Source: a virus. Taken from it: a stretch of DNA of 24,182 nucleotides. Under the pieces are notes generated by a model. That model was not told the origin of the DNA, did not search any database, and was given only the letters and a program-made list of their open reading frames with translations. The position numbers were made by a program, and so were the translations under genes. Shown one piece after another: positions 2,633-16,319 of this stretch; positions within the stretch are counted from its first letter, which is position 1, and every line of letters starts with the position of its first letter. Location of the stretch: positions 1 through 24,182 of the IMG/VR virus record IMGVR_UViG_3300014838_000079; one strand, 5' to 3'.

Positions 2633-3006
2633 CAAGATGCCAACATTGTAATAAGCTTACTCATTGTGAGCATTTAGTTGTTTATTATGCTCCTAACGAG
2701 CATGGAAAAGTAAGCGAGCTGACCGATTCTGTTAATTGGTTATTTCCTTTTCAGTATCCTGGAAATGATCCTTATTTACACCACAACGAATACGGTCGGC
2801 TAAAGTGTGGAGATATTTACATACACTTTAGAGTTCAACCCCCGGAAAAAACAAAATCTAAGGCACCAAAGAAAATAAAATATAAACCATCAAAAGAAGA
2901 ATATACTCAAGAGTCTGCAAGAGACGATGCTGCCGATTATGGTCCAGAAGGAAAACCTAAAAAATTAGCAGTAATTAAATTAGGACCTAAAAAAAAGCTG
3001 AATTAG
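2629..3006 (+). CDS. Zinc-knuckle protein, probable -1 frameshifted C-terminus
   Basis: 125 aa in the unshifted frame, starting with an ATGA overlap on the previous stop. The N-terminus has CQHCNKLTHCEH, a likely zinc site. The middle is Tyr/Trp-rich and the end is Lys-rich (KTKSKAPKKIKYKP). The in-frame stop at 3004 follows an A8 run. A -1 slip on A-AAA-AAG (2991-2997) opens a frame ending AELAKAYSHMKKHGG at a TAA at 3042-3044, directly before the next ATG at 3045. The longer product (about 138 aa) tiles the operon exactly, so the unshifted end may be incomplete. Function unknown. Confidence 0.55.
   Translation: MTRCQHCNKLTHCEHLVVYYAPNEHGKVSELTDSVNWLFPFQYPGNDPYLHHNEYGRLKCGDIYIHFRVQPPEKTKSKAPKKIKYKPSKEEYTQESARDDAADYGPEGKPKKLAVIKLGPKKKLN
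2991..2997 (+). promoter_or_regulatory. Candidate -1 ribosomal frameshift site A-AAA-AAG
   Basis: The heptamer is the type used by E. coli dnaX, here in the right register (zero-frame codons AAA AAG). TAGGACC, a Shine-Dalgarno-like stretch, lies 5-10 nt upstream. Only a weak hairpin (AGCT-gaatt-AGCT) follows. After the slip the reading frame runs to 3044. Confidence 0.4.
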
Positions 3007-3044
3007 CTAAAGCATATTCGCACATGAAAAAACACGGTGGATAA

Positions 3045-3323
3045 ATGTTAGGATTAAGTGAATCAGAAACAAAAGAGCTGAAAGATCAGCAATATCAATA
3101 CAATCTTAGACAATCTCAGATTTTACAAGAAAATTATCAATGCAATTGTAGGAATATCGGTAAAAACGGAATGGCTTGTGATGATACATTATATTTTTGT
3201 GAAAAATGTGAAAAATCAGATGAGTTAAATAACTTTGAAAAAAATGGAGCACAACAAGATGTAAATTCTGATTATGTTAAAATGTGTTGTGGAATTGATG
3301 AAAATGAATTAGGCAAAATATGA
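3045..3323 (+). CDS. Cys-rich hypothetical protein, 92 aa
   Basis: 92 aa, preceded by GGTGGATAA just before the ATG. It opens with a Gln-rich helix (KELKDQQYQYNLRQSQILQ), then clustered cysteines (CNC, C45, CEKCEKS) that could bind zinc, and an acidic tail with a CC pair. It overlaps the next gene by the four bases ATGA. No family is recognised; a structural zinc-ribbon role is possible but not shown. Confidence 0.5.
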   Translation: MLGLSESETKELKDQQYQYNLRQSQILQENYQCNCRNIGKNGMACDDTLYFCEKCEKSDELNNFEKNGAQQDVNSDYVKMCCGIDENELGKI

Positions 3324-3577
3324 CCATGATCCCTCCTCGCATAAAGAAGCTCCCTAATCTTCACAAGCCTAAAGGCTATGTACAAAAGCCTCAGATGTCA
3401 TCTAGCAATAGCAATCGTTCGCTCTATATGGGTGGAGCTAAGATGATCTACGACGGGATTAAAGACGTTTTTGAAGGGGAAGCCGAAAATATGAATCCAT
3501 ATTCCAACGAAAACTATCAACAACAAACAGATAAAATGATGGCAAAAATGAAAAACTTCAGGAATCAAAAATTATGA
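3320..3577 (+). CDS. Hypothetical protein, 85 aa
   Basis: 85 aa, translationally coupled on both sides (ATGA at 3320, ATGA at 3574). The N-terminus is Pro/Lys-rich and probably disordered (PPRIKKLPNLHKPKGYVQKP). The middle has a short helical segment (GGAKMIYDGIKDVFEG) and the end is Asn/Gln/Lys-rich. No family is recognised. Its place between terS and terL suggests a small accessory protein of the packaging operon. Confidence 0.45.
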   Translation: MTMIPPRIKKLPNLHKPKGYVQKPQMSSSNSNRSLYMGGAKMIYDGIKDVFEGEAENMNPYSNENYQQQTDKMMAKMKNFRNQKL

Positions 3578-3870
3578 AAAAACTGGCTTTACTTTTGATG
3601 TGTCAATCAGCTTTACATGCTTCAGATTTTAGTGATTACAAACATTGTTATACCCAGAATCGGTTTTTTTACGAACACTATTTAGGGACGGATGACCAAC
3701 TTACGACTCTAGGTCGTTTGCATTTGCTTGGGTTACGCTATCTTATTGATATGAGACTAGAGGATCAAAACGCTATTTATGATGATTCCTGCGAGTTATA
3801 TGATACTTATTTTGGCGATCAATATCTAACAGATGAATTCCACAGAAAATACGTGCCTCACAATGAGTGA
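3574..3870 (+). CDS. Small exported protein with signal peptide
   Basis: 98 aa. Residues 1-17 form a classical Sec signal: MKK, then a hydrophobic core LALLLMCQSALH, with likely cleavage after LHA (residues 15-17). The mature part (about 80 aa) is rich in Tyr, Asp and His, with Cys25 and Cys70 that could pair in the periplasm. Its 3' end overlaps the start of terL. An exported protein inside the terminase operon is unusual; possibilities include superinfection exclusion or another host-altering accessory gene. No family is recognised. Confidence 0.5.
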   Translation: MKKLALLLMCQSALHASDFSDYKHCYTQNRFFYEHYLGTDDQLTTLGRLHLLGLRYLIDMRLEDQNAIYDDSCELYDTYFGDQYLTDEFHRKYVPHNE

Positions 3871-4588
3871 TGAATATATCCCAACGCAAGAGCAACTCAA
3901 CAATACTCTGTGGCGTCTAACCAACCTCTATTACATTGCAGATAAAAACGGCAATGAAGTCCTATTTAATCTCAATTGGGCGCAACTTGAATTATACGAA
4001 AGGGAATGGCATCAAATGCTTGTGCTTAAGGCACGGCAAATTGGCGTTACTACCTATTTTTCAATAAAATATTTGGATGATTGCTTTTGGCATAGCAACA
4101 CAAATGCTGGCATCATAGCGCATCGAAAAGAAGATGCCGAAGATATCTTTAAAAAAAAGGTAAAATACGCTTATGACAGAATGCCCTCATGGACTAGAAC
4201 CTTTAACTCGGCAACAAACGATAGAAGTGGAGAGCTTGCTTTTGACAATGGAAGCTCTTATCGCGTGTCTACAGGATTTCGCTCAGGAACATATCAGCGA
4301 TTGCTTGTGTCCGAGTTCGGTAAGATATGCGCAAAATCACCTGATGTCGCTAAAGAGATTGTTACAGGCTCACTCAACACTGTGTCTACAGATCAAATCA
4401 TTGCTATCGAATCCACAGCAGAGGGACGATCCGGCTATTTTTATGAATACTGTCAAACAGCCCAAGCCATTCAACAATCAGGAAGAGAATTAACTCCAAT
4501 GGATATGAGATTTTTCTTCTTTCCATGGTTCGATGAACCGGGATATAGATTAAAAAAATTGAAGGATAATTCTATAATAGAGGAATGA
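3863..4588 (+). CDS. terL: Terminase large subunit, N-terminal ATPase part
   Basis: 241 aa from the ATG at 3863; an in-frame ATG at 3833 is also possible, and neither has a strong ribosome-binding site. It contains the packaging ATPase motor: Walker A variant KARQIGVTT (residues 56-64), Walker B LLVSEFG with catalytic Glu151, and coupling motif IESTAEG (182-188). It then follows the usual TerL path to FFFPWFDEPGYRL. There the reading frame departs from the family and stops at 4586-4588, on the start codon of the HNH gene. The nuclease half is encoded 3' of that gene at 5063-5899. Either two polypeptides assemble or an RNA event restores the protein. Confidence 0.85.
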   Translation: MSDEYIPTQEQLNNTLWRLTNLYYIADKNGNEVLFNLNWAQLELYEREWHQMLVLKARQIGVTTYFSIKYLDDCFWHSNTNAGIIAHRKEDAEDIFKKKVKYAYDRMPSWTRTFNSATNDRSGELAFDNGSSYRVSTGFRSGTYQRLLVSEFGKICAKSPDVAKEIVTGSLNTVSTDQIIAIESTAEGRSGYFYEYCQTAQAIQQSGRELTPMDMRFFFFPWFDEPGYRLKKLKDNSIIEE

Positions 4589-5088
4589 AAACATGTCCTC
4601 AGTGCAATTTGCATAAACCAAAATTATTGAAATCAAAAGGAATATGCGTTAATTGCAATTCCAATAATTGGTACAAAGAAAATAGATCGAGCGTGTTGAT
4701 CCGTACTAGGAAGTATGGGTTAGAAAAGACGAGAAAGAAAAGAAAACTTCCTCTTGATCACCCTAGATTGATAGGGGAATTCGGTAAAGGTCATTTGACC
4801 AAACATGGATATCGTTATATAAATAAGATAGGACATCCTAATGCTATCAATACAGGAAATGGAAGAGCCAGAATTTATGAACATACTTTTGTCATGTCCC
4901 AGCATTTAGGACGACCACTAAAGAAAAATGAATCTGTTCACCATAAGAATGGTATACGGGATGACAATAGGATTGAAAACCTTGAATTATGGCATAAGGG
5001 TCAACCAATCGGGCAACGATTACAAGATAAGATAGAATGGGCTAAACAATTTCTCCAAGAGTATGGCTATGATATCAAGAAACAATGA
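4585..5088 (+). CDS. HNH homing endonuclease inserted in terL
   Basis: 167 aa. An N-terminal zinc ribbon (CPQC near residue 4, CVNC near 21) precedes a basic linker and an HNH_3-type domain ending SVHHKNGIRDDNRIENLELW (residues 117-136), with His119-His120, Asn128 and Asn132. HNH homing enzymes nick cognate genes lacking the insert, and repair copies the insert in. The ATG overlaps the terL N-part stop (ATGA), and its 3' end overlaps the terL C-part start by 26 bp. The ORF fills the whole insert, leaving no room for a group I intron core, so this is a free-standing type splitting the gene. Confidence 0.85.
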   Translation: MKTCPQCNLHKPKLLKSKGICVNCNSNNWYKENRSSVLIRTRKYGLEKTRKKRKLPLDHPRLIGEFGKGHLTKHGYRYINKIGHPNAINTGNGRARIYEHTFVMSQHLGRPLKKNESVHHKNGIRDDNRIENLELWHKGQPIGQRLQDKIEWAKQFLQEYGYDIKKQ

Positions 5089-5899
5089 CATAGTTATCAG
5101 CAAAGAAACAAATGAATATTTAGATCAGATCGAGTTAGAGCGTCAAAGAAAGATTGACGAGGAGCAAAGACGATGGTATGAGATGAAACTTAAAATGCTC
5201 GGCGATTCTATGAAGCAAGAATATCCTAGCACGCCTAAAGAAGCTTTTGAAAGCGCTAACGAAGGTCTATATTATGGGTTTCAACTTAGCAAGATTAGGA
5301 GCAATGGCAATGTCTGTGCCGTTCCTTATGATGACAGTTTGCTTGTGCATACCGCTTGGGATATTGGCCTGGATGATTTTACGGCTATTTGGTGCTTTAC
5401 TTTGGGACGTGGAGGACAAGTATCAATAATAAACTATTACGAAAATTGGGACGAGGGAGCAGCGCATTATTGTGATTGGCTTAATAAACAGAAATACAGA
5501 TTTGGACGTCATATCTTCCCTCATGATGCGAGAAAAAGAGACGCTGGCTCTAAGACACAGTATCTTGACTATGTTACGCCGCTCCTCGACGGCAAGTTTG
5601 TCGTACTGGACATCAAGGAGTGCGACAAATTGGAAGGTATCCAAACAGTCAGATCAATGCTATCACGCTGTGTATTCGATGAACAAAAAACGTCGAAGGG
5701 CTTTAAACACCTGGAAGCTTACAAAAAGGTTTGGGATGATAGGCTCGGATGTTATAAAAACACACCATTGCATGATGAGCATTCTCACGCGGCCGACAGC
5801 TTTAGATATCTCGCTGTAGGACTTAAAGCACTAGAGCGTAAAGATGGAAGAGGTGCTGATGAAGACATTAAAGCAGTGAATAAGTATTACGGTTTATGA
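5063..5899 (+). CDS. terL: Terminase large subunit, C-terminal nuclease part
   Basis: 278 aa. It resumes the TerL alignment at DIVISKETNEYLDQIE, then WYEMK and KQEYPSTPKEAF, and enters the RNase H-fold nuclease: AWDIGLDDF with Asp100 and Asp104/105, HIFPHDA with Asp155, and HSHAADSFRYL with Asp245. This domain cuts concatemeric DNA with two metals at the start and end of packaging. The first residues (MAMISRN) overlap the HNH gene in another frame and are probably not ancestral TerL. Both terL parts lie in the same reading frame of the window. The start is likely coupled to translation of the HNH gene. Confidence 0.85.
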   Translation: MAMISRNNDIVISKETNEYLDQIELERQRKIDEEQRRWYEMKLKMLGDSMKQEYPSTPKEAFESANEGLYYGFQLSKIRSNGNVCAVPYDDSLLVHTAWDIGLDDFTAIWCFTLGRGGQVSIINYYENWDEGAAHYCDWLNKQKYRFGRHIFPHDARKRDAGSKTQYLDYVTPLLDGKFVVLDIKECDKLEGIQTVRSMLSRCVFDEQKTSKGFKHLEAYKKVWDDRLGCYKNTPLHDEHSHAADSFRYLAVGLKALERKDGRGADEDIKAVNKYYGL

Positions 5900-8969: not shown

Positions 8970-10985
8970 ATGCGCAACAATGACCCTATTTTCTGGCCAG
9001 AAGACAGTTTAAATGTCTCTCTTCGTCAGGGCATGGAAAAGAATTATAGCGATAGCATTAATATTCTACAAACACAATGGTATCAAGCCGATCTAAATCA
9101 AAGATTCACGATAAATGATCAAGAAGTTTGGGGTTTAATCTTTCCAGGTGTTGCGACTTATAGACGCAAAATCTGGAATTTCAACATCATGAATCCGATA
9201 TCTGAAGCGATATCAGGACAGCAAAGACAAACACGAAAAAGCTCCGCCGTCATTCCTATTCATAATGGAATGCAAAAGACTGCTGATCAGCTCACAAAGT
9301 GCCTCTATCATAATCATAAAGAAGGATTCCATCAGACATTTAGTGATGCATTTCAACTTGGAGCCATCATTCAGGGTTTAGGATTCATGTATATGTATGG
9401 TGATAGTACAAAAGATCCTATCAGTCCAAATCCGGTTTGGCGATATGTAGATATGAAGTCGTGCCTCTTTGATCCATATTTTCGCAAAAAAGACATGAGT
9501 GACGCAAGATTTTGGTGGGTAAGGACTTTCTTTGATGCTCAAGAAGCCGCTCTTATGTATCCGCAATTTGGCGACGAAATTCTCTCTCTTCCTAAAGGTA
9601 CTTATCGCGATGACAAATTCTACTACATGCCCGAAGTCTACCAAATCCAATTTCCAAATTTGATAGCTTTTGATGAATACTGGTATTTGACAAGCAGAGA
9701 AGCCACATTCCTAGTCGATAAAAAAACAGAAGAATGTCAAGAATTCCAAGGAACCAAAGATCAGCTAAAAGAGATTATGCAGGCTTTCAAAGGAAAGTTA
9801 ACTACAATTAAAAAGCAGGTTCCTACAGTACGCAGAAGCATTATTTTAAATGATAGAGTCATTGTAGATGAACCTAACCCCTACGGCATGGATCGCTACC
9901 CCGTGGTGCCGATGCTCGCTTTCTTCACTGCGGATACTCCATACTACGCATACAAGTTCAATAGCCCGATGACTATGCTCAGAGATTGTCAATATCTTTT
10001 GAATCGTTTGAAGGTTTCCAATCTCGAAATCCTCGATGCTCAACAGCAAGGCTTGAAGGTCAAAAAAGGCGCTCTTGTTACTCCAGATGATGCTCTAAAT
10101 TCAGGCCATGGTCGAGTTCTATCTATTGATCCCGACTTCTCCATGGATGACGTTCAGCCAATGCCGATTGTGCCTCCTTCTCCGGTCATGTTGCAAATGG
10201 AAGAGATGCTCAAGGGTATCTTTTTCAATATCGCCGGTATAGATCCTAATGCCATGGGCATGGATATCGATGACAAAGCCGGGATCATTACAATGATGAG
10301 ACAAGCTGCTACAGCTCGAAACCTTCAGAGGCTTTTTGATCAAGCCGATGAATCGCAAAGAATATGCGCGGAGATAGAAGTAGAATATATCCAAAAGAAT
10401 TGGACATATGGAAAAGTTCGTCAAGTCATCGGTGAAGAGCCTACAGCTGAATTCGATAGCAAAATCTTCTTTAAATATGGCTGCAAGGTTGTTCAAGCAG
10501 CATTAACAGAAACACAACAACAATTAGAATTAGCTCAGTTACTTCACTTCCAGCAATTATATCCTGATTTGACTCCTCCAGATGAAATCCTTGAATGCCT
10601 AACGATACAGAATAAAGATCGCATCATGGAAAAAGTCATGGCGCGTCAGAAAGCACAGCAAGAACAGCAACAGAAAATGGAAGAGTTGCAAATGCAGCAA
10701 ATCCAAATCGATAATATGACTAAGGTTGCCTACGCACATAGTCAGGAAGGTCTTGCTAAAGAGCGTGTTGCTAAGATCCAGACAGACAGTGCGGTTGCTC
10801 AAGATAAGTTACGTCGCGCTCATCAAGAAGATACGGCGAGCTTACTCAATGTTGTTAAAGCACTCAAAGAATTGAAAGGTATGGATTTAGATCATCTGCT
10901 GACACAAGTTCAAATTCTGAATGAGATAAGTCCTGTTGCAAATCCAGAGAAGGAAGTAGTTGCAAATAATCAAAATGTTGCATGA
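8970..10985 (+). CDS. Portal protein, P22-type
   Basis: 671 aa, with GGTGAAAG just upstream of the ATG. The portal is the dodecameric ring at the capsid vertex through which DNA enters and leaves. Typical signs are the length, an N-terminal region with WYQADLNQRFTINDQEVWGL and MNPISEAISGQQRQTRKSS, a central block with YVDMKSCLFDPYFRKKDMSD, and then DRYPVVPMLAFF. The segment IFFNIAGIDPNAMG is followed by a long helix. The C-terminal 130 residues are a Gln-rich coiled coil (QQEQQQKMEELQMQQIQID), like the portal barrel. Its position after terL fits podoviruses. Confidence 0.85.
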   Translation: MRNNDPIFWPEDSLNVSLRQGMEKNYSDSINILQTQWYQADLNQRFTINDQEVWGLIFPGVATYRRKIWNFNIMNPISEAISGQQRQTRKSSAVIPIHNGMQKTADQLTKCLYHNHKEGFHQTFSDAFQLGAIIQGLGFMYMYGDSTKDPISPNPVWRYVDMKSCLFDPYFRKKDMSDARFWWVRTFFDAQEAALMYPQFGDEILSLPKGTYRDDKFYYMPEVYQIQFPNLIAFDEYWYLTSREATFLVDKKTEECQEFQGTKDQLKEIMQAFKGKLTTIKKQVPTVRRSIILNDRVIVDEPNPYGMDRYPVVPMLAFFTADTPYYAYKFNSPMTMLRDCQYLLNRLKVSNLEILDAQQQGLKVKKGALVTPDDALNSGHGRVLSIDPDFSMDDVQPMPIVPPSPVMLQMEEMLKGIFFNIAGIDPNAMGMDIDDKAGIITMMRQAATARNLQRLFDQADESQRICAEIEVEYIQKNWTYGKVRQVIGEEPTAEFDSKIFFKYGCKVVQAALTETQQQLELAQLLHFQQLYPDLTPPDEILECLTIQNKDRIMEKVMARQKAQQEQQQKMEELQMQQIQIDNMTKVAYAHSQEGLAKERVAKIQTDSAVAQDKLRRAHQEDTASLLNVVKALKELKGMDLDHLLTQVQILNEISPVANPEKEVVANNQNVA

Positions 10986-11318: not shown

Positions 11319-11519
11319 ATGGCTAAATCATCATCATCATCGTCTTCATCCTCGAAAGATAGGCCAGGTGGTATAGAAATCCAAAGAGGGCCAATTTCTA
11401 TGGATGAGCAATATTCTATGGCGTTTCCTAGAGAACCCGAAAGAACGCGCGAAGATATGCAAAATCTACAAGATAGACGCTCTGGGATGACTCTGACAAA
11501 GCATGAGCCTAAAAGATAA
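11319..11519 (+). CDS. Poly-Ser hypothetical protein, 66 aa
   Basis: 66 aa, starting two bases after the preceding stop. Residues 4-12 are nine serines encoded mainly by TCA/TCG/TCT repeats, a short coding microsatellite. The remainder is polar, with PREPERTREDMQNLQDRRSG. It is probably disordered, no family is recognised, and it is the last gene before the noncoding stretch at 11.52-11.77 kb. Confidence 0.4.
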   Translation: MAKSSSSSSSSSKDRPGGIEIQRGPISMDEQYSMAFPREPERTREDMQNLQDRRSGMTLTKHEPKR

Positions 11520-11548: not shown

Positions 11549-11596
11549 AAGCGTAACTTGAGTTTGGGGTACGCTTAAAACGCGTTGCCCCCTTTA
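11549..11596 (+). other. Pair of mutually exclusive hairpins
   Basis: AAGCGTA (11549-11555) pairs perfectly with TACGCTT (11570-11576) across a 14-nt loop. The same 3' strand can instead pair downstream, with GGGG and CGC meeting GCG and CCCC around 11566-11591. No U-run follows, so neither form is a standard terminator. It lies in the noncoding gap between the poly-Ser gene and the tRNA-like element. Confidence 0.35.
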
Positions 11597-11605
11597 CCGC
11601 ATCAT

Positions 11606-11697
11606 GGCATATTAGCTCAGCAGCAGAGCGCTTTGTTCCACTGTGATTGATATCTAGTTCCGCAAAGAGGTCGATAGTGCTAGTCTATCATATGCCA
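11606..11697 (+). tRNA. tRNA-like element with 27-nt anticodon loop
   Basis: The cloverleaf is complete apart from the anticodon loop. The acceptor GGCATAT (11606-11612) pairs with ATATGCC (11690-11696), with A11697 as discriminator. The D stem is GCTC/GAGC with a 7-nt loop. The anticodon stem is CTTTG (11631-11635)/CAAAG (11663-11667), followed by a 5-nt variable region. The T stem is GATAG/CTATC (11673-11689) with a 7-nt loop TGCTAGT. The anticodon loop is 27 nt (11636-11662) instead of 7. Read from the 5' side, the anticodon would be CCA (Trp). The T loop has G where T55 is normal, the D loop lacks GG, and no CCA end is encoded. A degenerate tRNA, a tRNA mimic or an attachment-site remnant are all possible. 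Confidence 0.5.
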
Positions 11698-11709
11698 TAC
11701 AATTTCTAT

Positions 11710-14614: not shown

Positions 14615-14854
14615 ATGACAGTATCAATTGCATCGTTGCCTCCACAGATACAACAGAGGTACAACGGAAAGCTTTTGTCAACTCCTGAGCATAATCTGAT
14701 TCACCAGCTTTTTGCCACACCAGTTGAGTTGCCAGACAATAATGGCTTTATTGATCGTCAGTCACGTTATGACAGACTAGATCTGTTTGAAGTGCCTCTC
14801 GATGATGGCCAAAACAACCCACCACCACAACAGTTAAATAGGGTGGATGTGGAT
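14615..14854 (+). CDS. Major capsid protein, coding part 1 (N-terminal)
   Basis: First 80 residues of the coat protein, with AAGGGAAA upstream. It reads MTVSIASLPPQIQQRYNGKL, then LIHQLFATPVELPDNNGFID, RYDRLDLFEVPLDDG and QQLNRVDVD, resembling the N-arm and early strands of podovirus coat proteins. The in-frame continuation after Asp80 gives 14 unrelated residues and a TAA at 14897. The expected next strand is found in another frame from 14905. The boundary at 14854 is set by a strong hairpin and by where protein-like sequence stops. Confidence 0.7.
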
Positions 14855-14872
14855 ATAAACGGCTGTCCACAT
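14847..14872 (+). other. P1-like hairpin at the end of capsid part 1
   Basis: ATGTGGAT (14847-14854) pairs over eight positions with GTCCACAT (14865-14872). A closing T-G wobble falls exactly at the proposed end of coding part 1, with a 10-nt loop. This is the geometry of a group I intron 5' splice site, or of a take-off hairpin in translational bypassing. The same architecture recurs at 14961-14983. Confidence 0.6.
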
Positions 14873-14904
14873 ATTAGTGATTGGCTGCTTGCAGCTTAAT
14901 GTGC
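14855..14904 (+). other. About 50-nt unexplained insert in the capsid gene
   Basis: It separates capsid parts 1 and 2 and must be skipped, or crossed by a frame change, to make the coat protein. It has stops in all three frames. It holds the 3' strand of the P1-like hairpin and a small stem GCTG-cttg-CAGC (14884-14895). It is far too short for a group I or II intron. The exact 3' edge is uncertain; skipping 47, 50 or 53 nt all restore the frame. Confidence 0.5.
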
Positions 14905-14967: not shown

Positions 14968-15677
14968 TAACAGTGAGTCCTCGATAAATCTACTCTGATT
15001 GACTTGGAAGCCCTAACGTAAAGTCGAGGGTGACAAGGGCGAAGGAGTTAAATTTTTATGAGTGTTAATAGATTTGAGTAAAATATGACATTGTTGACGA
15101 ATAGAAATAGCATCGAGTGTGGGAGTTTTTCTCACTGCGCCCTTGATCGGTTTGCAGTAAGTTTCTCTCATTCTGATCATGATTTCGCAATGTCTCTTTT
15201 TGATTCTAAGATATGGATAAATCTTTGGAAGAAGGGTGTCAAGCGCTTCGCCTGTAAGATTGGCTTCATATACTTTTCGACGATTAAGATGTTTTCTATT
15301 TTTAGAAACAACTTTTCCCCAAAAGTGTATTCCAAGGAAATCTTGCAGCCATTGCATGATTCCAATATCGACGGAAGCAAATTTAAGAATGGTTCGATAA
15401 TTGAAAGGATGAGGACCGGTTTTAGCTTTGACAGTGTCAATGTAAAAACAGCCGTCACCATCAATGTATCCGGCCAAGTAAGCAAAGTTAAGTTCGTCAT
15501 GCATAGCATTTACTCCAAAACTACATTATACACACGTGAGATATTTAATTCCACGCTGAACGACTTAGCGAGTGGAATCCGAAAGGATATGCGAAAGTCT
15601 GATCTTCATGGAGACATGAAGAGGGAAATCCGAAGAGGTTTCCCCGCCTAGTAATAGGTCATTAAAGTAACAGTTTG
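14968..15677 (+). ncRNA. Group I (IA, td-like) self-splicing intron in capsid gene
   Basis: 710 nt. P1 pairs exon CGAGGAT (14961-14967) with GTCCTCG (14977-14983), with the T-G wobble at the 5' splice site. P3 may be CTACTC (14990-14995)/GAGTGG (15570-15575). P7 is GACTT (15562-15566)/AAGTC (15595-15599), P8 is ATCC-GAAA-GGAT (15577-15588), and P9 is CTTCATG-GAGA-CATGAAG (15604-15621). The run AACGACTT, then AAGTCTG and the P9 hairpin, closely parallels the T4 td intron core. The intron ends in G15677, just before the exon CCAGTG. Splicing gives NED-PVLN in frame. An antisense endonuclease gene fills its middle. Confidence 0.85.
15013..15504 (-). CDS. LAGLIDADG homing endonuclease, antisense in intron
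   Basis: 163 aa, with GGAG 9-12 nt before the ATG at 15504. A single LAGLIDADG motif, LAGYIDGDG (residues 10-18, catalytic Asp17), implies a homodimer like I-CreI. It continues with strand CFYIDTVKA, helix SVDIGIMQWLQDFLG and later KIYPYLRIKKRHCEIMIRMR. Such enzymes cut intronless alleles at the insertion site and so spread the intron. It runs opposite to the intron, so it needs its own transcript. Its last codons (15013 to about 15080) overlap the 5' part of the ribozyme core. Confidence 0.85.
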   Translation of the reverse strand: MHDELNFAYLAGYIDGDGCFYIDTVKAKTGPHPFNYRTILKFASVDIGIMQWLQDFLGIHFWGKVVSKNRKHLNRRKVYEANLTGEALDTLLPKIYPYLRIKKRHCEIMIRMRETYCKPIKGAVRKTPTLDAISIRQQCHILLKSINTHKNLTPSPLSPSTLR

Positions 15678-16319
15678 CCAGTGTTAAACTCTGCTGCGGC
15701 TCGCCTTGGACAGTCTCTTCGTGAGACCCAAGATGCTCTGCAAAGAGATAATTTGGAATCTTCTGCTTCTATCATCAACTGTGTTGGCGGAACAAACGGC
15801 GACATCCCAACTGAGATGACAATCTCTGATGTGGATGACGTATTTACAGTTCTGCAAAACAATAGCGGTGAATATATCACCAACATCGTGGAAGCGGAAT
15901 TACGTTTTGGAACATCACCAATCGGCGATGCATATGGTTGTATGTTAACGACTAGGATGATTCCTACGCTCTATAATATGACTGGATTCATTAAGAAATT
16001 CCAATATCCGAATATCTCTCAAACTTTGAGCGTAGAGATAGGCGGAGCGAATAACGTTCGTTTCTTTGCTTCTGAGCAAGGGTCTGTCAGTCCAAATGCT
16101 TCAATGCTTGGGAATGATATTGCCAACTGCTTCGTGAGTGCTAAAGAGGCTTACAAAGTTGTGTGGCAAGCAGGGGGTAAAGCACGCTTTATCTACCTAC
16201 CGCCAGGGTACAATAATGATCCATGTATGTTGAGACATACAGCAGGTTGCTCGTTCTATCAAGGACAGTGCATCACTAACGATCTTTGGATTCAAAACCT
16301 ACGCTCAACAGGAATCTAA
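15678..16319 (+). CDS. Major capsid protein, coding part 3 (C-terminal)
   Basis: 213 codons after the intron, beginning PVLNSAAARLGQSLRETQDA. Next come TEMTISDVDDVFTVLQNN, FGTSPIGDAYGCMLTTRMIP, a beta-rich core and LPPGYNNDPCMLRHTAGCSF near the end. The helix after the N-terminus, the P-domain-like middle and the size of the joined protein (about 314 aa) fit an HK97-fold coat protein. There is no ATG near its beginning; the only nearby initiator is a TTG at 15675 inside the intron end, without a ribosome-binding site. Expression therefore depends on splicing. Confidence 0.75.
   Translation, partial: PVLNSAAARLGQSLRETQDALQRDNLESSASIINCVGGTNGDIPTEMTISDVDDVFTVLQNNSGEYITNIVEAELRFGTSPIGDAYGCMLTTRMIPTLYNMTGFIKKFQYPNISQTLSVEIGGANNVRFFASEQGSVSPNASMLGNDIANCFVSAKEAYKVVWQAGGKARFIYLPPGYNNDPCMLRHTAGCSFYQGQCITNDLWIQNLRSTGI

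Follow-up and report, generated by a model that had tools for sequence, protein, structure and literature searches.

The cloverleaf at positions 11606 to 11697 of the window, the whole stretch of 24,182 bases of virus DNA analyzed here, is real, and the element probably mimics a tRNA without decoding. Its structure, conservation, stem covariation, swapped elbow and synteny were observed in the window and its relatives. The elbow carries A18 and G55 in place of G18 and U55, and the anticodon arm is elongated. In the window virus record, the portal protein (phrog_156) was recognized, as was the large terminase in both its halves; the portal gene provides the syntenic anchor.

8970..10985, plus strand: portal protein gene, the syntenic anchor (phrog_156, E 4.8e-44)
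11319..11519, plus strand: small gene pB; in close relatives with both, the element follows the end of this gene
11566..11592, plus strand: candidate weak hairpin of terminator-like type, preceding the element: GGGG..CCCC, then CTTT (seen by eye; a stricter scan was negative)
11606..11697, plus strand: the whole tRNA-like element, from G1 to discriminator A73, without an encoded CCA (ARAGORN and leave-out covariance model)
11606..11612, plus strand: acceptor stem 5' strand GGCATAT, pairing with ATATGCC at 11690-11696 (7 pairs)
11615..11629, plus strand: D arm GCTC-AGCAGCA-GAGC, with A18 at 11622 replacing G18 and G19 at 11623
11631..11667, plus strand: anticodon arm of 37 nt (canonical, 17 nt), CTTTG, a 27-nt insert and CAAAG
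11635..11661, plus strand: GTTCC direct repeat (11635-11639 and 11657-11661), the opposed TCC copies forming an internal loop in the predicted fold
11668..11672, plus strand: variable loop AGGTC, present in 21 of 32 elements
11673..11689, plus strand: T arm GATAG-TGCTAGT-CTATC, with G55 at 11679 replacing U55

The stem lengths of 7, 4, 5 and 5 bp and the coordinates put forward in an earlier note on this DNA were confirmed, together with the 27-nt loop, which reads as 11636-11662 with the discriminator A at 11697, and the 22-nt period of GTTCC at the two ends of that loop. The note had regarded the anticodon loop as the only abnormal part; the expansion stands, but the elbow is abnormal as well (A18 at 11622, G55 at 11679). 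T8, A9, G19 and C56 are kept. In the minimum-energy fold, the 27-nt loop closes a further hairpin across a symmetric TCC/TCC 3x3 internal loop, and because the loop can pair internally, "elongated anticodon arm of 37 nt" is the better name. The proposed slippage origin from GTTCC finds no support in the comparison, since relatives carry unrelated arms of 16-67 nt and the repeat represents the two sides of the internal loop. For the whole 94-mer the thermodynamic minimum is a long hairpin instead of a cloverleaf, so that the cloverleaf assignment is based on homology and covariation.

ARAGORN with default settings reported 11605-11698 as tRNA-Ser(act) and, when restricted to introns of 5-60 nt, as tRNA-Trp(cca) with a 20-nt intron. 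Rfam RF00005 gave no match in the window at gathering or permissive thresholds, nor did any other credible family, and three relatives exceeded the RF00005 gathering cut-off (L028, 38.8 bits; L022, 35.6 bits; the L116 paralogue, 40.1 bits). Standard tRNA models thus overlook the element, and since some other genes of this kind escape them too, under-annotation is probable. A covariance model (R2) built from an alignment (A5) of 23 relatives with the window excluded found 11606-11697 on the plus strand as its sole match in the window (65.7 bits, E 4e-13). In A5, the acceptor, D and T stems are paired in 99.5% of cells, and 7 of 16 pairs change on both sides; shuffled alignments score 0.121 for covariation and the real one 0.268, a value that none of 500 shuffles reaches, and sliding the alignment by 1-3 columns lowers the score to 0.078 or less. 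Among the 23 relatives, the acceptor stem is paired in 100% of cells with double changes in three pairs, the D stem covaries, and the T stem shows double changes in three of five pairs. Examples are L024, in which acceptor T7-A66 becomes A7-T66 and a D-stem C-G becomes T-A, and L030, in which acceptor A4-T69 becomes C4-G69. A hand alignment of 30 sequences including other acceptors gave 99.6% paired cells and 10 pairs with changes on both sides. Duplicates (L007, L025, L042) were removed before counting; L003 and L014, with a misaligned 8-nt acceptor strand, and the weak L032 (41.5 bits) were excluded from alignments A3 and A5, and the first two were likewise omitted when pairs were counted over 30 rows. 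The hand alignment leaves out L111, L085 (a minihelix) and L122 (with an insert in the D-loop). The earlier note had looked to stem conservation and covariation in relatives, and both were found; its suggestion of a tRNA mimic gains support, since relatives and unrelated phages alike conserve the cassette, with stems that covary and an anticodon arm that has been remodelled.

A portal protein search gathered 80 loci. A close clade of 39 loci was counted by hand (L001-L031, L037, L041-L044, L053, L054, L082). Covariance model R1 detected the element in 23 of these 39 loci at 60-88 bits; in the other 42 loci no match exceeded 44 bits, and thus none of the 42 stood above 60 bits. The element is missing from 16 of the 39 close relatives, one of which (L013) ends right after the portal gene, and its absence from these 16 indicates that it is dispensable. 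In many close relatives the cassette lies directly after pB, downstream of the portal gene. Among the close relatives scored, the element begins between 10 and about 510 nt beyond the end of the pB match; in L010, L011, L015, L029 and L030 the distance is 10-20 nt, a gap so short that co-transcription is likely. Over the searched 250-bp intergenic stretch, the window matches L043 (a record of 39,325 bp) at 100%.

A search with the T-arm pattern located the element in further IMG/VR contigs, including the unrelated phages L116, L117, L118, L122 and L126. The portals of L116 and L122 are just 26-29% identical to that of the window, and none of ten tested proteins was found in L117, L118 and L126 within the contig parts compared. 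In L116, the element has two neighbours: another A18/G55 element, whose acceptor differs (GCGTCAG/CTGATGC), and a tRNA-Ile(TAT) of canonical type with GG/TTC. The element also occurs on L083, a contig of a public MAG. Three further T-arm pattern matches (L113, L123, L127) lack a cloverleaf and were set aside as chance. Distant blastn with two queries did not find the element in cultured phages, and the hits H62, H63, H67, H71, H73, H76 and H93 were ordinary tRNAs, other tRNA-like sequences or Y RNA. In 232 and 288 host-side genomes, the best model matches were ordinary tRNAs at no more than 64 bits, except for one phage contig in a MAG, and the nearest cellular matches inspected were tRNA-Thr, Lys, Ala and Phe at 57-64 bits. 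The idea of an attachment-site relic, also raised in the earlier note, receives no support: whole cloverleaves are kept rather than 3' halves, their place in close relatives is always beyond the portal cassette, and in these host-side genomes nothing rises above the ordinary-tRNA range except on the phage contig binned into a MAG.

Of 232 genomes from the phylum to which G050 belongs, 9 contain portal relatives with 27-62% identity, compared with 1 of 240 and 1 of 58 genomes from the phyla of two other phage-holding MAGs. A full chlamydial major outer membrane protein is present in two genomes of the phylum of G050 (E 1e-210 and 1e-232), which identifies this phylum as Chlamydiota. Five portal-bearing contigs are phage-sized (35-41 kb), and the portal relatives in Chlamydiota genomes (L157-L164, L168-L176) suggest tailed dsDNA phages of environmental Chlamydiota. 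The host of the phages is probably environmental Chlamydiota, as co-binning suggests but does not prove. In the stretches examined, the Chlamydiota portal contigs do not carry the element. Elsewhere in the window, the gene for the major head protein is in two parts (14615-14899 and 15675-16319) that flank a gene on the reverse strand matching phrog_5046, a phage family labelled HNH; Rfam matched no group I intron family at this site, and the relative L082 encodes the protein as one intact 315-aa ORF (3555-4502). The large terminase gene is likewise split (3833-4588 and 5063-5899) around an HNH endonuclease ORF (4585-5088).

The G18-U55 contact is regarded as near-universal in tRNA, and suppressor tRNAs with altered D and T loops have been obtained by selection. 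Among 32 elements, A18G19 is present in 30 and G55 in 31. IMG/VR was scanned with an acceptor-independent T-arm signature, which returned at least 120 stretches, with at least 41 matches within cloverleaves. Such a T-loop occurs in at least 77 unique tRNAs among the matches listed, 44 of the 77 being tRNA-Met(CAT) and the remainder Thr, Ile, His, Phe, Lys, Gln, Ser, Arg and Gly, with mostly normal anticodon arms. The 404 unique ARAGORN tRNAs from all loci listed gave 336 parsed sequences, 68 not being placed by the parser; the parsed set comprises 242 G18G19/U55, 78 A18G19/G55, no A18G19/U55 and one G18G19/G55, together with the minor combinations other/U55 (6), G18G19/C55 (5) and other/G55 (4). 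The Fisher p of 8e-75 is not a true probability: the set contains related sequences, and the scan pattern enriched for G55, though not for A18. Because A18 tracks G55 although the pattern selected G55 only, the two positions covary as a tertiary pair, and the window element, with A at 11622 and G at 11679 in the cloverleaf, is a member of this A18-G55 class.

In the cultured Erwinia phage Cronus, the swap is found in one of 22 tRNAs examined, a second tRNA-Met, and the elbow swap is accordingly a property of single genes. Four hits inspected from searches of cultured phages with two class tRNAs as queries showed normal TTC loops. Screening 288 genomes from a single bacterial phylum with the T-arm pattern gave nothing, in a search for exact matches only that also misses the L083 variant. 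The notion that G55 keeps an RNA out of translation was dropped, since G55 is present in tRNAs with normal anticodons and alone is no sign of non-decoding. The element retains G19 and C56, which are RNase P contacts, and not G18 and U55. The latter two are targets of TrmH and TruB (PMC7912444).

Across 32 elements, the anticodon arm measures 16-67 nt and never the canonical 17. In 27 sequences with a GG acceptor, the arms have a mean pairwise identity of 0.46, compared with 0.41 after shuffling and 0.82 in the body. Of 20 arms, 13 fold better than mononucleotide shuffles do (p<=0.05), the window arm reaching p 0.06; the hairpin form alone tends to persist, and length and sequence vary. The window element lacks a 5-bp anticodon stem with a 7-nt loop and therefore has no decodable anticodon at the canonical place. 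The arms of L003, L014, L024, L030 and L083 have stems of about 8 bp with 7-nt loops such as GTTATGA, GTCATGA or ATTATAA, which resemble CAU/UAU anticodon loops placed three base pairs too far out to decode. In six elements with different acceptors (L022, L028, the second element of L116, L193, L213, L285), a variable hairpin is framed by ATGATCC..GGGGAG. No anticodon-like bait is conserved in the arm.

Related phages depart further from the usual tRNA form. In L098 (G004), a tRNA-like gene at 15336-15394 has canonical acceptor, D and T arms, and an 8-nt linker replaces the anticodon arm. Inserts of about 40 nt in the D-loop occur in tRNAs of G009, G041, L026 and L085 (L105 8816-8926; L107 3330-3442; L026 near 4190; L085 10690-10804), several with a AGCATTRACAYTCGTACGG-like sequence in common. 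Vibrio phage D507 (L136 1003-1106) carries an annotated tRNA of 104 nt, whose loops are canonical and whose anticodon arm is expanded.

The favored interpretation, held tentatively and at somewhat less than even confidence, is that of an A18-G55 phage tRNA whose arm has been remodelled, which does not decode, is matured by RNase P and serves as a tRNA decoy. As the arm has turned into a longer, fast-evolving hairpin, decoding would be impossible, and a decoy for host tRNA-directed defence fits best with a conserved body joined to a fast-changing arm. The canonical tRNA-Ile(TAT) that L116 keeps beside its two A18/G55 elements was counted for the mimic. Counted against this interpretation are the hairpin minimum of the 94-mer, the want of a conserved bait in the arm, the 16 close relatives that lack the element and the presence of G55 in tRNAs with normal anticodons. 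Transcription, processing and the decoy role are proposed here as the likeliest sequence of events. The late (portal) transcript would read into the element, which would be made as the tail of the late message; host RNase P may cleave at G1, and the 3' end could then be trimmed and CCA added. The resulting stable L-shaped body may be displayed as a tRNA decoy and occupy a host tRNA-directed factor, for which nucleases of defence systems and toxins are the likeliest candidates. Through its unusual arm and elbow the element could be excluded from translation or act as bait. A decoy for anticodon nucleases, as suggested in the earlier note, is a plausible candidate role and the leading functional guess.

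Compared with canonical tRNA (RF00005), the element shares the 7-4-5 bp acceptor, D and T stems, T8 and A9, G19 and C56, and the AGGTC variable loop, and differs in A18/G55 for G18/U55, a 37-nt arm, the lack of an RF00005 match and the lack of an encoded CCA. The staphylococcal non-translational tRNA-Gly for cell-wall synthesis has altered D-loop and T-loop contact nucleotides and keeps its anticodon arm; the likeness lies in these contacts being altered. A tRNA-Cys identity for the acceptor, which GGC and U73 fit, was set aside given A73 in 5 of 32 elements. Phage tRNAs as counter-defence are established (PMC11555353; PMC10264068). Those directed against PrrC, PARIS and retrons share a phage-encoded tRNA body with the element, but they replace cleaved tRNAs and decode, whereas the element is without a usable anticodon.

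It is also conceivable, if unlikely, that the element acts as mRNA punctuation, marking the 3' end of the late operon's message or a site for its processing. RNase P and tRNA 3' enzymes would recognize its acceptor-T half and cleave the message at that site, the anticodon arm being irrelevant. An acceptor and T-arm minihelix is a known minimal type of RNase P substrate, and L085 keeps a 46-nt minihelix of acceptor and T arm alone. A strong intrinsic terminator follows pB in 8 of 13 element-lacking versus 4 of 20 element-bearing close relatives scored, a hand tally that depends on one simple hairpin rule. However, the D arm and elbow are conserved as strongly as the acceptor, beyond the needs of a minimal substrate, and unrelated phages share a near-identical acceptor sequence, which punctuation does not need.

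Decay of a Met/Ile-like phage tRNA gene, with the arm drifting after loss of decoding and the body decaying slowly, is judged quite unlikely. It would account for arm identity close to the shuffled level, for the five arms that look like old CAU/UAU anticodon loops and for the patchy presence in the close clade. Compensatory changes in all three body stems, the 99.6% pairing across 30 sequences and the usual hairpin form of the arms point instead to continuing selection.

A working tRNA from which phage RtcB seals the halves after excision of an insert is very unlikely, even though the window genome encodes RtcB (E 1.9e-69; L088 8922-10112) and ARAGORN can read the tRNA-Trp(cca) with its 20-nt intron. 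RtcB is present in 6 of 47 virus records searched and is not tied to the element, occurring by hand count in one of three near-complete genomes with the element versus three of seven without; many arms are continuous 7-8 bp hairpins with nothing excisable, and the symmetric 3x3 internal loop of the minimum-energy fold, inspected by eye, is no bulge-helix-bulge. No evidence that the 20-nt insert is a removable intron appeared.

YrlA-type Y RNAs are Ro60-binding tRNA mimics that, like the element, retain a tRNA-like body (acceptor, D and T arms) in which another structure takes the place of the anticodon arm. A kinship with them is highly improbable, since these RNAs are circularly permuted and lie beside a Ro gene, whereas the order in the element is acceptor 5', D, anticodon arm, T, acceptor 3'. 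A Pfam scan of 9 window-genome proteins showed no Ro family. Mycobacterium phage Sparky has an unannotated permuted tRNA-like sequence upstream of its Ro gene (L131, about 2980-3130), probably a YrlA-type Y RNA, in the order T arm, acceptor 3', loop, acceptor 5', D arm by eye; the existence of such a phage sequence speaks for the kinship, which already fails on the permutation.

A search of chiefly open-access literature found no description of the element or of the A18-G55 class; the element is counted here among phage tRNAs, a known kind, from which the elbow swap and, in the window's branch, the altered anticodon arm set it apart. The broader proposal, that many phages rebuilt the elbow from G18-U55 to A18-G55 gene by gene and that the window lineage also swapped its anticodon arm for a variable hairpin, giving a non-decoding decoy exchanged between unrelated phages, is rather doubtful. 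If it is true, A18-G55 tRNAs should escape TruB and TrmH, which need U55 or G18, as well as host defence that reads this elbow. A class that swaps both elbow partners in otherwise functional-looking tRNAs would offer a natural test of the contact and its modifications, and the branch of the window poses the sharper question of what use a phage may have for a conserved tRNA body without a usable anticodon.
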